Positions 11,426-29,113 of a stretch of DNA of 64,000 bases are shown here, piece after piece. The first letter of the stretch is position 1. Each line of letters starts with the position of its first letter. Origin of the DNA: an uncultured Ulvibacter sp. (lineage in GTDB: Bacteria; Bacteroidota; Bacteroidia; Flavobacteriales; Flavobacteriaceae); NCBI GenBank assembly GCA_943789105.1, contig CALSSW010000001.1:1-64000 (forward strand), given 5' to 3'. The notes under the pieces were generated by a model, which saw only the letters and a list, made by a program, of their open reading frames with translations, searched no databases and had not been told where the DNA came from. A program made the position numbers and the translations under genes.

Positions 11426-12257
11426 CGTCTTCCAATTTTTGTGTTAGTGCAATAAATTGCGCTACAGATAGCTGCTCGGGTCTTTGCCCAAAGATAGCAT
11501 CTTCTTTTATTTTATCTGAAAGATTAAAAGATTTTAAACTATTTCTTAGTGTTTTACGTCTTTGCTGGAAGGCATTTTTGACAACTTTATACAGCATGGC
11601 CTCACTACAATCAATGTCTAAGGAGGCTTTTCTGCGCAATCTAAGCACGCCGCTCTCCACTTTGGGTGGCGGGTTAAATACCGTGGGTGGAACCGTGAAA
11701 AGATACTCTGCATCATAAAATGCCTGGGTAAGTACAGAGAGAATACCATAGGTTTTGCTGCCTTCTTTGGCGCAAATACGCATGGCTACCTCTTTTTGAA
11801 ACATGCCACTAAATTCTGGCACCTGCTGTTTCATCTCAAGCATTTTAAATACAATTTGGGTAGATATATTGTAAGGAAAGTTACCTATAATACCAAACTG
11901 CTGCTCTCCAAAATAATCTTTTAGGTCTTCTTTTAAGAAATCTGCCTCTAAAATCTGCAAGTTCTGGTTGGGGTAATTATTGATAAGATAATCTACAGAT
12001 TCGCTATCGAGTTCCATGGCCACGAGATTGATGTCTTTCTCTAGTAAATACTTGGTCATTACACCTGTTCCTGGGCCAATCTCCAGCACGTTTTTATAGC
12101 CTTCAAGCTTTAGGGCTTGAGAGATGTTGTTGGCAATAGTTTCGTCTATTAAAAAATGCTGGCCTAGGTGTTTTTTTGCGCGCACCCCATCGTTTTGCGG
12201 ATTAAACTCTCTCTTAGGAAACGCGGTATGTTTATTGTATTTTTTCTTTTTTGCCAT
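11403..12257 (-). CDS. rsmA: 16S rRNA (adenine1518/1519-N6)-dimethyltransferase
   Basis: [33 protein letters not shown]; overlaps the mgtE start by 23 bp. Confidence 0.95.
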
Positions 12258-12264
12258 GGGTGGG

Positions 12265-12573
12265 TTATTGCTCAGATATTACCTCTAATTCTGTTCTAAA
12301 GGCTATATAGTTTCCCTCAAATGCTTTGCCTTGCGCTCTTAATGCCGGGGCATCTTCTTTGTAATACCTCTCTAGGGTTTGTTTGCTATCTGTGGTGTAT
12401 TGTACAGAGTAGGTGATCCCGCCCATCTCTTCTTCCACCATTACTTTAGTCATAAGGGCTTTACTGAACTTATTGGTAGCCAGCATTGCAGGAATATGGC
12501 TGTTTTTCATCCAATATAACCACTCAAGATGTATGGCATTTTCTACGTTAATAGTGACATTATATATATACAT
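12265..12573 (-). CDS. DUF4286-like small protein
   Basis: 102 aa, [31 protein letters not shown]; next to rsmA. Confidence 0.6.
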
Positions 12574-22332: not shown

Positions 22333-22436
22333 GCGCGCAAAACAGATTACATTAAACCTGAAACTTTTTAGGATAATATAATAATTCTTGGAGATAATTT
22401 GTACACCCCCCACTCCAAGTATCGAACTTTTTCTTG

Positions 22437-22586
22437 CAAGATTTGGATAGGTTAAGAGATTTCACTCTACGCTTAAATACGGTTTAAATTTCACTCTTGT
22501 AGTTGTATTTAAAAAGAAATGTTCTATTTTTGAGAGAGATTTAATTAATCATTTAATCACTAATTAATGAAACAATTTTTTACACT
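22437..22586 (+). repeat. 150-bp leader/promoter repeat, copy 1
   Basis: Identical by eye to 25800-25949; includes Bacteroidota-type promoter TTG (22503)-N19-TATTTTTG (22525-22532), 5'UTR and first codons MKQFFT. Confidence 0.9.
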
Positions 22587-24147
22587 ATTAGCGGCGGTAT
22601 TATTTACTGCAACAACTTTAGCCCAAGGAAATTTAACTGTCACCTCTGGGGGTTCTCTAACGGTAAGCGCAACAAATTATTTAACTGCTGCTGGTAACTT
22701 TTCCAACAATGGTGGTACCGTTACTTTAAACTCTACCGCAGATAATTTTTCTTCTCTTATTGTGCAAGGAACTGCAACTGGAGACATCGTTTACAACAGA
22801 TTTGTAAATGTGTATGACGACCTTAATGGTGGTGGTTGGGATTTTGTAGGAGCCCCTACCGGGATGACCATTGCAGATTTTATAACAGCAAATGGATCTA
22901 ACATACAAGTACTTGGTGATGATTATGCATTCGCTCAGTATGATAATGCGACTGGACAGTATACTAGATACGCAACAGCCTCACAAACAGGAAGCTTTAC
23001 ACCTGCACAAGGGTATGCATTGGCAATGTCACCAGAGGATCTACCTCCACCTCCATCAGGTGGCGTACCTGGAACCACAGTAGCCTTTACTGGTGCTATG
23101 GAAACTACATCTCAAAGCATCAATATTGTTAACAATCATGACGGCGCCGGAGGTAGAAGATGGAACTTGGTATCAAATCCTTTCCCTTCATATATATCAG
23201 GAAATACTGCTGCAGGAGTTACTAACTTTATAGATGCAAACAGCACTGTTATTGATAATGAGCGTTTGGCTGTATATGGTTGGAATGGCTCTGATTACGA
23301 TATTTACAACCAGCTTTCAGGTGGTTTTTCAATAGCTCCTGGTCAAGGATTTTGGGTAGCTGCAGCAAGCACGTCAGATGCCGCTCTTGATTTTACAGCT
23401 GCTATGCGTACTTCTATAGGAACTGGAGATTTTGTTTCAGGACCACAGCTACTTACTTACAATTTAGGATTAAAGCTTTACAATGGTGAGATAGAAAGAG
23501 CAGCAACCAATTTCTACTTTAGAGATGGTCTTACCCTAGGTCTTGATCCTGGGTATGATGCAGCAGCATACAACCAGTCAACAAAACTAAGTTCAAGACT
23601 GGCCCAAGGAAGCCAAGAAACAGCATTTGCTATAAATGCTATGGATATTGATGATTTGCAAAACACTAGAGTGCCGCTAGAGATAAGACAAAATGCAGGA
23701 CAGGCCTTCAGCATTAGTATTGCAGATATGGAACTGCCTCAAGATATCTCTGTATATCTAGAAGATACCTTAAACGGTACCCTTACTTCACTAAAAGACG
23801 GAGACTTTGAGCTAACGGCTCAAAGCGATCTTAGCGGTATAGATAGATTCTTTATTGTCTTTAAAGACAATAGCGTACTCTCTAGTGGAGATAACCTTGG
23901 TATAAACACGCTAAATGTATATAAAGCAAATACAGAAAACTTTGTAACTATAGCAGGTATAACGCCAAGTCTTGGTAAACTGGATGTTACGCTGTATTCT
24001 ATGCTAGGGCAAACAGTACTAGAAAAAGCATTAAACCAAACAACAACAACCCAGAGAGTATCTACAGAAGGCCTAGCAAGCGGTTTATATGTTGTACAAA
24101 TAAGGTCAGGAAATCAAATATTTAACAAAAAAATAATTATAAAATAA
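22567..24147 (+). CDS. Secreted protein with T9SS C-terminal sorting domain
   Basis: Signal peptide MKQFFTLLAAVLFTATTLAQ; C-term VTLYSMLGQTVLEKAL...GLASGLYVVQIRSGNQIFNKKIIIK. Confidence 0.88.
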   Translation: MKQFFTLLAAVLFTATTLAQGNLTVTSGGSLTVSATNYLTAAGNFSNNGGTVTLNSTADNFSSLIVQGTATGDIVYNRFVNVYDDLNGGGWDFVGAPTGMTIADFITANGSNIQVLGDDYAFAQYDNATGQYTRYATASQTGSFTPAQGYALAMSPEDLPPPPSGGVPGTTVAFTGAMETTSQSINIVNNHDGAGGRRWNLVSNPFPSYISGNTAAGVTNFIDANSTVIDNERLAVYGWNGSDYDIYNQLSGGFSIAPGQGFWVAAASTSDAALDFTAAMRTSIGTGDFVSGPQLLTYNLGLKLYNGEIERAATNFYFRDGLTLGLDPGYDAAAYNQSTKLSSRLAQGSQETAFAINAMDIDDLQNTRVPLEIRQNAGQAFSISIADMELPQDISVYLEDTLNGTLTSLKDGDFELTAQSDLSGIDRFFIVFKDNSVLSSGDNLGINTLNVYKANTENFVTIAGITPSLGKLDVTLYSMLGQTVLEKALNQTTTTQRVSTEGLASGLYVVQIRSGNQIFNKKIIIK

Positions 24148-24173
24148 TTTAGCCTTAATAAACTAATTAACCA

Positions 24174-25562
24174 ATGAAACAATTATTAACACTTTTAGCA
24201 GCAGTATTACTAACTGCAACAACGTATGCCCAAGTGGGTATAAACACAGAAAATCCAGATCCATCTTCGGCATTAGACATTAACTCTACCACAGGGGGTT
24301 TGTTAACGCCAAGAATGACCAACCAGGAGCGTCTTGATATTCAAGACCCAGCTGTAGGATTACTTGTTTACCAAACAGATGGTACAGCGGGTTTTTATTA
24401 TCATAATGGAACTAGTTGGGCTGCGGTAAGTGGTTCTGGAGGGTCTGACACCAATTGGTTAGATGATGGTACAGGTAATATCTCTAATTCTAATACAGGA
24501 AGTGTTAATGTTAATAGTGTTTTAAATGCCAATGGTGGTATTGTTAATTCAGACATTACGGCATCTAGTTCATTATTTGCTACATCAACGGGTACAACTA
24601 CCTTAGGAGGTGGCGCTGTAGATGTAAGTGCTCTTGGAGCTACCACAACTATTAAAGGAGATTTGGTAGTAGATGGTTCTTTTACAGGAGATGTAACAGC
24701 TACAAGTGTAGAAAATGGTGTGTATACCATAGGAGGTCAAACAATCGCTGGCACTAAAAATTTTACTGATGATTTATTTTCTACTGGAGATTTTTGGAAT
24801 GAAGGAATTATGCATTCTTTTGGGGAAATAAGATCTTTTGATACTATAAATTCTTATGGTGTTTTAAATGCCAATGGTGGTATTGTTAATTCAGACATTA
24901 CGGCATCTAGTTCATTATTTGCTACATCAACGGGTACAACTACCTTAGGAGGTGGTGCTGTAGATGTAAGTGCCCTTGGAGCTACCACAACTATTAAAGG
25001 AGATTTGGTAGTAGATGGTTCTTTTACAGGAGATGTAACAGCTACAAGTGTAGAAAATGGTGTGTATACCATAGGAGATCAAACAATCGCTGGCACTAAA
25101 ACTTTTAGTGATGATTTAATTTCTATGGATATGCTAAGAAGTGATGGTGTTCTAGAAAATAATGGCCTATTAATATCTCCAGGTACTATAAATTCTATGG
25201 GTAACTTCTATGGACAAACGTTGCACGCTAATGAATATATCACCACCTCAGATAGACGCCTTAAGAACAATATTAAACCAATGACAAAGGCTATAGATAA
25301 AGTTATGGCGCTAAACCCAGTAAGCTACAACAAGAAAAAATCAATTTCTGACAGTGAGTATGTTATTCAAGAAAATGGATTTATAGCCCAAGAGTTACAA
25401 AAAGTAATGCCAAAATTGGTAAAAGTTGGAACAGATAAGGATAAAACACTGTCTGTGAATTATTCAGGAATAATCCCAGTGCTTACCAAGGCCATACAAG
25501 AGCAGCAAAAGGAAATTGAAGAGCTAAAGCAATTGGTTAAAAAATTACTCTCTTCAAAATAG
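24174..25562 (+). CDS. Tail-fibre-like surface protein with C-terminal S74 intramolecular chaperone domain
   Basis: MKQLLTLLAAVLLTATTYAQVGINTENPDPSSALDI...; C-term TSDRRLKNNIKPMTKAIDKVMALNPVSYNKK...NGFIAQELQKVMP. Confidence 0.88.
   Translation: MKQLLTLLAAVLLTATTYAQVGINTENPDPSSALDINSTTGGLLTPRMTNQERLDIQDPAVGLLVYQTDGTAGFYYHNGTSWAAVSGSGGSDTNWLDDGTGNISNSNTGSVNVNSVLNANGGIVNSDITASSSLFATSTGTTTLGGGAVDVSALGATTTIKGDLVVDGSFTGDVTATSVENGVYTIGGQTIAGTKNFTDDLFSTGDFWNEGIMHSFGEIRSFDTINSYGVLNANGGIVNSDITASSSLFATSTGTTTLGGGAVDVSALGATTTIKGDLVVDGSFTGDVTATSVENGVYTIGDQTIAGTKTFSDDLISMDMLRSDGVLENNGLLISPGTINSMGNFYGQTLHANEYITTSDRRLKNNIKPMTKAIDKVMALNPVSYNKKKSISDSEYVIQENGFIAQELQKVMPKLVKVGTDKDKTLSVNYSGIIPVLTKAIQEQQKEIEELKQLVKKLLSSK
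24517..24776 (+). repeat. 260-bp internal direct repeat, copy 1
   Basis: Matches 24859-25118 at an offset of 342 bp (114 codons) with about 5 mismatches by eye. Confidence 0.9.
24859..25118 (+). repeat. 260-bp internal direct repeat, copy 2
   Basis: See copy 1 at 24517-24776. Confidence 0.9.
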
Positions 25563-25620
25563 AAACTATTAAAAAGAAAGATTTTTATCAAAGCCCTTTC
25601 ATAAATGTTGGGGCTTTTTA

Positions 25621-25767
25621 ATTATTTATCAATTTAGCGTAGCGATCTCACAAACACCTTTCAAGAAAATAACAATGGGTGCGTAATTTAATAAGTGCCG
25701 CGTAAGCGGCCGAGTAAAAAAAATAAATCCCCAAGAATAATAATTTATTCTTGGGGATAAATTGTAC
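25621..25767 (+). repeat. 147-bp trailer repeat, copy 1 (contains GCCGC-GTAA-GCGGC and 14-bp-arm terminator-like hairpin)
   Basis: Ungapped alignment to 26719-26865 with 12 differences; hairpin arms 25727-25740 / 25745-25758. Confidence 0.9.
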
Positions 25768-25799
25768 ACAACGTACTCCAATTATCGAACTTATTCTTA

Positions 25800-25949
25800 C
25801 AAGATTTGGATAGGTTAAGAGATTTCACTCTACGCTTAAATACGGTTTAAATTTCACTCTTGTAGTTGTATTTAAAAAGAAATGTTCTATTTTTGAGAGA
25901 GATTTAATTAATCATTTAATCACTAATTAATGAAACAATTTTTTACACT
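25800..25949 (+). repeat. 150-bp leader/promoter repeat, copy 2
   Basis: Identical by eye to 22437-22586; promoter TTG 25866-N19-TATTTTTG 25888-25895. Confidence 0.9.
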
Positions 25950-26711
25950 TTTAGCAGCAGTATTACTAACTGCAACAACCTATGCTCAAATAGGTATTAA
26001 TAATGAAAACCCAGATGCTTCTGCGGCTTTAGATATTACTTCTACTACGGGAGGGTTACTGCCACCACGTATGACAACTACCCAGCGTGATGCGATTAGT
26101 GCTGCAAAAGGATTAGTGTTATTTAATACTACTACAAACACACTACAGATTAATGAAGGAGATGCTACAACAGCCAATTGGTTAAGTTTAACTGCTTCTA
26201 CTTGTGGCTTATCAATAGGTGATACCCACCAAGGTGGTATTATCTTTTATTTAGATGGTTCAGGCTGCCATGGATTGGTGGCTGCGCCAAGTGATCAAAG
26301 TACAGGGATTCAGATGGTATGCATGGCAGGTTATACTCGACAGCCTATGCTTATGGAAATGGTATTGGCAGTGGAGAAGGTAATACGTCAAGGAATCAGG
26401 CAGCCAGTGGCATGGAGATGATGGTGATAATTATGCAAGCTCGAATTATGTCAAGATTTAAAATTTCGAGGAGGACAGAAACTGGGATTGGTATTTACCC
26501 TCTAAATACGAGTTAAATCTTATGTATGAAAACATAGGACAAGGAAATGCTCTTGGGCCTGGGGAATGTTGGTAATTTTGCTAGTAGTTCCTACTGGAGT
26601 TCTACGGAGTACGATTAACTTTGACGCGTGGAAACAGAGTTTCTTCAATGGTAGTCAGACCAACGTCATAAGTCAGCGCAGTACTATGTGCGTGCTGTTC
26701 GGGCTTTTTAG
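25930..26711 (+). pseudogene. Decayed secreted protein gene with lectin-fold-like (DUF1566/FISUMP-type) C-terminal segment
   Basis: Intact N-term MKQFFTLLAAVLLTATTYAQIGINNENPDASAALD; domain pieces recovered in different frames: STAYAYGNGIGSGEGNTS, WDWYLPSKYELNLMYENIGQGNA, GNVGNFASSSYWSSTEYD, YYVRAVRAF*. Confidence 0.8.
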
Positions 26712-26718
26712 TTATTTA

Positions 26719-26865
26719 ATTATTTATCAATTTAGCGAAGCGGTCTCACAAACACCTTTCAAGAAAATAAGGAGGGGTGCGTAATTTAATAAATGCCGCG
26801 TAAGCGGCCGAGTAAAAAAAATATATCCCCAAGAATAAATTATTATTCTTGGGGATAATTTGTAC
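26719..26865 (+). repeat. 147-bp trailer repeat, copy 2, abutting tRNA-Leu
   Basis: See copy 1; perfect 15-bp-arm hairpin 26824-26838 / 26843-26857. Confidence 0.9.
26815..26857 (-). terminator. Intrinsic terminator of tRNA-Leu (minus strand)
   Basis: Minus strand: TATCCCCAAGAATAA-TAAT-TTATTCTTGGGGATA followed by TATTTTTTTT. Confidence 0.8.
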
Positions 26866-26944
26866 TCAAGATGGGAATCGAACCCACACTCCCGAAAGAA
26901 CTGGATTTTGAATCCAGCGCGTCTACCAATTCCGCCACTTGAGC
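26863..26944 (-). tRNA. tRNA-Leu (anticodon CAA)
   Basis: Minus strand GCTCAAGTGGCGGAATTGGTAGACGCGCTGGATTCAAAATCCAG...GTGGGTTCGATTCCCATCTTGAGTA; 7-bp acceptor stem, loop TTCAAAA, long variable arm; CCA not encoded. Confidence 0.95.
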
Positions 26945-27513: not shown

Positions 27514-29113
27514 ATGCCTGTCCAGAAAAAATACATTCCTTTACTTCTAGGAGTTGCTGTTGCCGTAGGGATTTTTCTTGGCGCAAGACTAAATTTTACT
27601 ACCGTAAGTGACACGCTGTTTTCTTCCAACTCAAAAAAAGAAAAGCTCAACAGGCTTATAGACTTTATAGACTTTGAGTATGTAGATAAGGTAAATACAG
27701 ACAGCATCGTAGATATTACCGTAAACAGCATCCTTGAAAATCTGGATCCACACTCTGTGTATATCCCATCAAAAAGCTATGAAGATGCTGCAAGTGATAT
27801 GCGCGGAAATTTTATTGGTATTGGTATTAGTTTTTACCAACACCAAGATAGTATTGCCGTGATACGCACCATCGAAGACGGTCCTGCACAAAAGGCTGGC
27901 ATCCATAGCTGGAGACAGAATACTATACGCAGATACCATACCCTTGTTTGGCAAGGGTCTAAACAGGTATGATGTTGTCTCTCAACTTAAAGGCACCCGC
28001 AATAGTAAGGTTTCCCTTAAAATAAAAAGAAAAAACCAAGACAGCCTTTTAACTGTAAAAGTAACCCGGCAAAAAATACCGCTGGTTAGCCTTGATGCTG
28101 CCTACCTTCTTACCGATGCTATAGGGTATATCAAACTCAACCGTTTTGCAGAGCCTACCTATAGTGAGTTTAAAAAAGCACTGACAGCTCTCATTGATCA
28201 AGGCGCCACCAAATTAGTGCTAGATTTAAGAGATAACCCAGGGGGGTACATATCATCTGCCCAGGCTATTGTAGATGAGTTTTTACAAGACAACACCCTG
28301 ATACTTATCACCAAAAACAAAAATGGCAAACAAGAAAAAACCTATGCAACAAATAAAGGCAGCTTTAAAACCGGTAGCCTATATGTGTTAATTAACGAGA
28401 ACTCTGCCTCTGCCAGCGAAATTGTAGCAGGCGCCCTGCAAGACAACGATAAAGGGGTTATTATTGGCCGCCGCTCTTTTGGTAAAGGACTTGTGCAGCG
28501 CGAGATGGCCCTTGGAGATGGTAGCGCCGTGCGTCTTACCATTGCTAGATATTACACCCCAACAGGAAGATCTATTCAAAAACCCTACGATAAGGGCAAT
28601 GACGCCTATTACAGTGAGTATGAGTCTAGGTATGTAAACGGGGAGCTGCAAAGTCTAGACAGTATCGTAGTTAATGATTCTTTGCGTTTTGTTACTCCAA
28701 AAGGAAAGGTAGTATATGGCGGGGGAGGGATTATCCCAGATGTGTTTGTGGGTAAAGATACCACTCAAGAGTATCAGGCCATTAGTTATATCTCAAATAA
28801 TGGCTTTATGAGTTATTTTGCCTTTGAGTACCTAGACACCCACCGCCAAGATTTTAAAGGGCAAACCCAGCAAGATTTTATAGATAATTACACGGTTTCT
28901 AAGGCTACATTGCAGGCTTTTTTAAGCTATGCAAACATCACAGAGCTTACTACTTTTAAAGGCTACACCCCCCGTCTTAAACTCCTTATTAAGGCCACTC
29001 TAGCCCGGCAATTATACGGCACCCAGGCCTATGAGATGATTTTAAATAGCCAAGACCCTATGATTAAAAAAGTATTAGAACTTCAACAAAGGCTTGCTGT
29101 TACAGATCAGTAA
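27514..29113 (+). pseudogene. S41-family C-terminal processing peptidase with one extra nucleotide (frameshift or sequencing error)
   Basis: ORFs 27514..27972 and 27944..29113 join as ...AQKAGI[+1 nt ~27904]IAGDRILYADTIPLFGKGLNRYDVV...; S41 core NSASASEIVAGALQDNDKGVIIGRRSFGKGLVQ. Confidence 0.85.

Follow-up and report, generated by a model that had tools for sequence, protein, structure and literature searches.

A tRNA-Leu-bounded array of secreted-protein cassettes related to targets of diversity-generating retroelements in an uncultured Ulvibacter sp.

Introduction

In an uncultured Ulvibacter sp., a short array of genes for secreted proteins lies between prs and tRNA-Leu(CAA), with the same boundary, leader and trailer sequences recurring around its units. 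How was such an array built, and where did its genes come from? The array was analysed within a stretch of 64,000 nt (the window; contig CALSSW010000001.1, positions 1 to 64,000), and its features are listed in Table 1. The genome concerned (G000; 2.1 Mb, 83% complete) belongs to the genus that holds Patiriisocius marinus. Its sister genome G011 is 77% complete, and both assemblies are incomplete. The analysis indicates that a diversity-generating retroelement (DGR) has very probably had the lectin gene of the second unit as its target, and that the stretch from prs to tRNA-Leu(CAA) is probably a tRNA-anchored additive island that grew by serial insertion at the 3' end of the tRNA. We favour, with some caution, the two propositions jointly.

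Results and Discussion

Adenine-specific variation in the unit 2 lectin gene

The final 117 nt of the lectin cassettes in G000, G011 and the related genome G003 vary almost exclusively at adenines, and the Lcl_C domain (PF07603) was found in the G003 and G011 homologues of the unit 2 lectin. A search for this variable repeat (VR) pattern in 398 genomes of the family led to genome G165, which carries a complete DGR consisting of a VR protein, a bAvd/DivGenRetAVD protein, an adenine-rich template repeat (TR) and a 403-aa reverse transcriptase (RT). The RT contains the motif IGNLTSQ, which we take to be typical of DGRs, and its best PDB match was the 8ub7 group of reverse transcriptases, presumably the BPP-1 DGR enzyme. 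When the VR of the window was compared with the G165 TR, differences were found at 17 of 45 adenines, whereas the 70 other bases were all identical (p = 1.3e-8). A control comparison of G000 with G003 over the part of the gene that precedes the VR gave mismatches that were about equally frequent at all four bases (0.20-0.34). Mismatches between TR and VR that fall overwhelmingly opposite adenines have been described for DGRs (Roux et al. 2021, PMC8144416). The same VR pattern was not found in viral contigs.

Downstream of the VR in G165, G155 and G347 come AT-rich sequence and a CCGC-GTAA-GCGG hairpin, then the Avd gene, and hairpins of this type are present in both trailers of the window. As the unit 1 trailer moreover keeps a stub of a VR end, unit 1 also appears to have descended from a target cassette. 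Such hairpins reportedly aid retrohoming in BPP-1. Both the adenine-biased 3' end of the lectin gene and the origin of the two trailers in a DGR target cassette had been overlooked in an earlier account made from the letters of the window alone (hereafter the sequence-only reading).

In the G011 array, a lectin gene (L027:8085-8201, the C4a copy) ends in template sequence with a TR-type 3' flank. It was considered as a variable repeat and dropped, since its flank, CAAACTTTCTTAAAA, matches the flank of the G165 template, and the copy is therefore treated as a TR relic. The G165 DGR itself has at least five VR genes distributed over three contigs (L201, L202 and L203), several of them close to tRNA genes.

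DGR retrohoming copies the 3' ends of target genes. The derivation of the trailers from a DGR target end would thus also suit an ordinary gene family in which the adenine-biased variation is real and gene conversion, together with the DGR machinery, made the gene ends uniform, without any mobility. This explanation is improbable, because the leader, the terminator and the tRNA end are not copied by DGR retrohoming, and sister genomes differ in their cassette content.

Boundary repeats and cassette turnover at tRNA-Leu(CAA)

The boundary sequence (A)TTCTTGGRGATAAWTTGTAC is present in three copies (22384-22404, 25747-25767 and 26845-26865). The leader repeat extends over 243 nt with 93% identity (22384-22626 and 25747-25989) and reaches into the signal-peptide codons, and the trailer repeat covers 155 nt with 92% identity (25617-25771 and 26715-26869). 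The three boundaries, the two repeats and tRNA-Leu(CAA) thus stand where the sequence-only reading had placed them. The genome-wide search for additional trailer copies that it had proposed was carried out in G000, and returned the trailer at this locus only, together with short hairpin matches.

Table 1. Features of the array between prs and tRNA-Leu(CAA), in window coordinates
Feature	Position	Strand	Remarks
Outer boundary	22384..22404	+	ATTCTTGGAGATAATTTGTAC, partial terminator arm, without trailer
Unit 1 leader	22384..22567	+	95% to unit 2 leader; repeat runs on into signal-peptide codons
Unit 1 gene A	22567..24147	+	526 aa, secreted protein sorted by the type IX secretion system (T9SS; Por_Secre_tail)
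Unit 1 gene B	24174..25562	+	462 aa, C-terminus Peptidase_S74 (endosialidase chaperone); N-terminal block resembles that of the unit 2 lectin
Unit 1 trailer	25617..25771	+	Contains DGR target-end stub (GTTGGGGCTTTTTAATTATTTATCAATTTA, whose start lies a few bases before the trailer), then hairpin, terminator and boundary
DGR-type hairpin, unit 1 trailer	25697..25710	+	GCCGC-GTAA-GCGGC; same place and type as VR-Avd hairpin in G165, G155 and G347
Middle boundary	25727..25767	+	tRNA-type terminator hairpin and AAATTGTAC; proposed decayed attachment-site copy, by analogy with tRNA-Met element
Unit 2 leader	25747..25930	+	
Unit 2 gene	25930..26709	+	Secreted lectin-type protein (Lcl_C), very probable DGR target; frame broken by indels
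Variable repeat (VR)	26592..26708	+	Relative to G165 template
Unit 2 trailer	26715..26869	+	
DGR-type hairpin, unit 2 trailer	26795..26808	+	GCCGC-GTAA-GCGGC
Terminator hairpin of tRNA-Leu and 3' flank	26820..26861	-	
tRNA-Leu(CAA)	26862..26944	-	Proposed insertion anchor; abuts third boundary

The sequence-only reading had set turnover between prs and tRNA-Leu as a test, and the outcome was in its favour: the cassettes found there do differ among G000, G001 and G011. In these genomes, TTTGTAC or a close variant of it marks the junctions, and the ends on its left and the starts on its right vary. A short unit adjoins the tRNA in G001, and the same start lies deeper in G011, where an extra cassette follows. 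The G011 array, whose cassettes include sulfatase, polysaccharide-type and T9SS genes, consists of two stretches (the end of contig C4 and the inside of C2) that are assumed to be joined. In the small-genome relatives G001 and G011, tRNA-Leu(CAA) adjoins dcd, as it does in the window. In larger congeners it adjoins prs, and where prs and dcd lie on one contig, the interval is occupied by an operon beginning with a TonB-receptor-like gene, as judged from translations.

Genuine copies of the tRNA-Leu 3' end were found only in the G011 array, at two internal boundaries, L027:8295 (13 leading bases exact) and G011:C2:39003 (11), with p ~3e-4. The two junctions run on into TCAAGATGGGAAT or TCAAGATGGGATT, which is the tRNA-Leu end, and the terminator to which it is joined there is the one seen in the window. 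The boundary hairpin (CCCCAAGAATAA..TTATTCTTGGGG) belongs to a type also present 3' of tRNA-Arg in G000 (L029) and of tRNA-Leu(TAA) in G002 (L032), and is therefore best read as a tRNA terminator that was copied along with the tRNA end. In an Rfam search of 21.9-27.1 kb, the tRNA was the sole hit to exceed its gathering score. Another terminator-like hairpin belonging to the boundary family was seen at L030:7959-8000 (G000:C5), with no tRNA detected close by.

The precise junctions, the mixed cargo and the hairpin that ends most cassettes could also suggest an integron-like system, in which the boundary hairpin would be an attC-like folded site and an attI-like site next to the tRNA would capture the cassettes. 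This was rejected as very improbable, since hairpins like this one are the usual tRNA terminators of the clade and no integron integrase was recognised among the four PF00589 matches in G000 (two strong ones, assigned to XerC/XerD by the strength and length of the match, and two recombinases of tRNA elements). In addition, the hairpin is missing from some ends.

Recombinase-bearing tRNA elements and the origin of the array

On contig C5 of G000 (L209), a gene for a 347-aa tyrosine recombinase is located 57 nt from a copy of tRNA-Met. The element is flanked by identical 106-bp repeats comprising the tRNA end and the terminator, and a third tRNA-Met copy, decayed to CTAC and the terminator (90%), closes a unit without integrase. 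By its arrangement, this element appears to match the anatomy of the window array. Similar recombinases were found at two places in G011, each time beside tRNA-Ala, and beside tRNA-Met in G165 (76% identity). Such recombinases are rare: at E <= 1e-60, only 6 of 250 genomes of the bacterial family had one.

Serial insertion is favoured because of the turnover at one junction, the tRNA-end copies in G011 and the tRNA-Met recombinase element in the same genome. According to this model, the 3' end of tRNA-Leu would have received elements successively, with the tRNA end and terminator being copied at every insertion, and the older copies would have lost the tRNA letters and retained the terminator with TTTGTAC. 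The remaining units would be cargo without integrase, the recombinase having presumably come from related elements or been deleted since. As for the cargo, it would consist of secreted surface proteins derived from DGR target cassettes. In these, a promoter leader, a signal peptide and a shared N-terminal block come first, the C-terminal domain is exchangeable, and the 3' end is of DGR type (VR or VR stub, then hairpin). The unit 2 lectin would have been diversified through adenine-specific mutagenic retrohoming, by past DGR activity in the lineage, with an RT that the assembled genome no longer contains.

Several observations weigh against this model. The two internal boundaries of the window hold no significant tRNA letters: as regards a tRNA-end copy they contain the terminator and GTAC only, and the tRNA-3'-end-like tails that the sequence-only reading saw at 22.4 and 25.77 kb, when compared with 20,000 random 32-mers, gave p = 0.019 (in an alignment other than the one it proposed) and p = 0.065, neither significant alone. 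The homology of leaders and trailers reaches far beyond any attachment core, as tandem duplication also predicts. The array contains no recombinase or integrase gene in its ORF (open reading frame) list or by PF00589 search, in agreement with the sequence-only reading, and the tRNAs beside which the recombinase family was seen are tRNA-Met and tRNA-Ala rather than tRNA-Leu. With respect to the DGR, neither an RVT_1 match nor a G165-like RT was found in G000 or G011, an absence that is unproved at 83% and 77% completeness, and no TR was found in the incomplete G000 assembly. The proposal of insertion at the tRNA 3' end, already made in the sequence-only reading, thus gains from the G011 copies and the tRNA-Met element and loses from the boundaries of the window itself.

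The lengths of the leader and trailer homologies fit tandem duplication by homologous recombination, in which an ancestral lectin cassette would have been doubled in place and its coding parts later replaced or recombined, with the tRNA as a mere neighbour. The genes themselves fit it too, as an N-terminal block is common to two of the three array genes and a signal-peptide start to all three. It is also in favour of this explanation that the contigs of G001, G003 and G004 stop at or near the locus. Tandem duplication is nevertheless rather unlikely, given that junctions occur at the same TTTGTAC between unrelated ends, some of which bear other hairpins (G011 L027:5480 and 8385), that tRNA-end copies lie at two G011 boundaries, and that tRNA-bounded units with a recombinase are present in the same genome.

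DGR targets in tRNA-bounded units of other genomes

As far as the assembly shows, the VR of the window would be an orphan target. No Avd gene is present in the ORF list of the window region; a genome-wide Avd search of G000 was not made. Among 12 genomes of the genus, RVT_1 matches were obtained in G007 and G009 only, and G007 alone matched the G165 RT, weakly. Neither G155 nor G347 has a G165-like RT, although VR lectins and an Avd fragment of 62 aa are present in both. As G155 is a single contig that is 99% complete, orphan targets do exist.

In G165 and G155, VR lectins are found in tRNA-bounded units. A VR-lectin unit of G165 is bounded by 128-bp repeats of the tRNA-Asp end (97%), and other VR genes of this genome are clustered near its recombinase beside tRNA-Met. 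In G155, VR lectins, the Avd fragment and a recombinase lie between repeats of the tRNA-Met end, and in G347 VR lectins lie beside Avd and a recombinase. Three of the four VR-positive genomes possess the tRNA-element recombinase, against 6 of 250 overall (p = 3e-5, in a test that assumes the presence of G254 in the 250-genome sample and ignores kinship).

These associations might point to a distributed hypermutation system, in which small DGR-target units hop between the tRNA genes (Leu, Met and Asp) of marine flavobacteria apart from the mutating retroelement, an idea that we put forward as doubtful. If it were true, a cell could gather a changing set of pre-diversified surface lectins, which could be diversified again whenever an element with RT and template arrives. 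The locus itself, as read here, links two engines of diversity that are usually studied separately, the turnover of gene content at tRNA sites and the adenine-specific hypermutation of binding proteins. If targets travel without RT, surveys of DGRs based on RT would overlook them, and genomes without RT, such as G155, would be wrongly scored as lacking diversified proteins. Remote DGR targets are already known, as are tRNA islands, and it is the combination of the two across several genera that appears to be new. A limited literature search turned up no paper describing it.

Comparison with known systems

The additive flexible genomic islands of Alteromonas gain and lose cassettes at one chromosomal site (PMC5217437), and the tRNA-Lys additive island of Methylophilaceae holds cassettes beside the tRNA with recurring copies of its last 20 bp (PMC10872708). 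The window array likewise changes cassettes at one site, and the suggestion of the sequence-only reading that it may be an undescribed cassette-type system is not supported, tRNA-anchored additive islands having already been described in other aquatic bacteria. It differs from such islands in its cargo, a series of secreted DGR-type target genes with common leader and trailer, and from the Methylophilaceae island in the decay of the tRNA letters at its own boundaries. Like tycheposons, as described in PMC10872708, the elements of G000, G011 and G165 have a tyrosine recombinase beside a tRNA copy, and cargo. Unlike tycheposons, the window array has no recombinase. DGRs (PMC8144416; BPP-1 type) resemble the locus in the C-terminal Lcl_C target, the adenine-specific differences between VR and TR, the hairpin after the VR and, in the relative G165, the presence of Avd, TR and RT. 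Complete DGRs differ from it in the two components for which G000 gave no match, RT and TR. Units without integrase that carry attachment-site copies, next to relatives with an integrase, are known from cis-mobilizable elements and from the accretion of integrative and conjugative elements. The array resembles these in having integrase-less units with proposed attachment-site copies and integrase-bearing relatives, mobilisation in trans being presumed. It is unlike them in that conjugation genes were not seen.

Genes of the units and other tRNA-associated arrays

The product of unit 1 gene A shares 71% identity over 401 aa with a G011 protein encoded near a tRNA-Ala element (L212). Gene B, the S74 gene, contains an internal duplication of 277 nt (24507-24783 and 24849-25125, 96%). 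The homologue of the unit 2 lectin is intact in G003. The sequence-only reading had called this lectin gene decayed, and its frame is indeed interrupted. Compared with its intact counterpart in G011, the neighbouring S41 peptidase gene (27514-29113) has an extra nucleotide that splits it, which points to possible indel errors in the assembly, so that the label is unsafe and the frame breaks of the lectin may be either assembly errors or decay.

In G005 (L140, C51), a tyrosine recombinase lies downstream of tRNA-Leu(CAA) in a phage-like or mobilizable element; no tRNA-end repeat was found in the 17.6 kb searched, and the case was not used as evidence. Within the tRNA-Met element of G000, a second array (L209:1750-8530, G000:C5) comprises secreted BspA-like lipoprotein genes with 75-nt internal repeats and common leaders. 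A 96-aa protein (MNTTGKKFGGRQKGTPNKLSNK...) recurs, apparently unchanged, near the recombinases of L209, L210, L211 and L212. Finally, G155 carries tandem units of 391 bp (L204:3030-5059 and 12113-12538), composed of the tRNA-Met 3' end and a GIY-YIG gene, and in these repeats a hairpin, CCCCGATA..TATCGGGG, takes the place of the anticodon-loop region.

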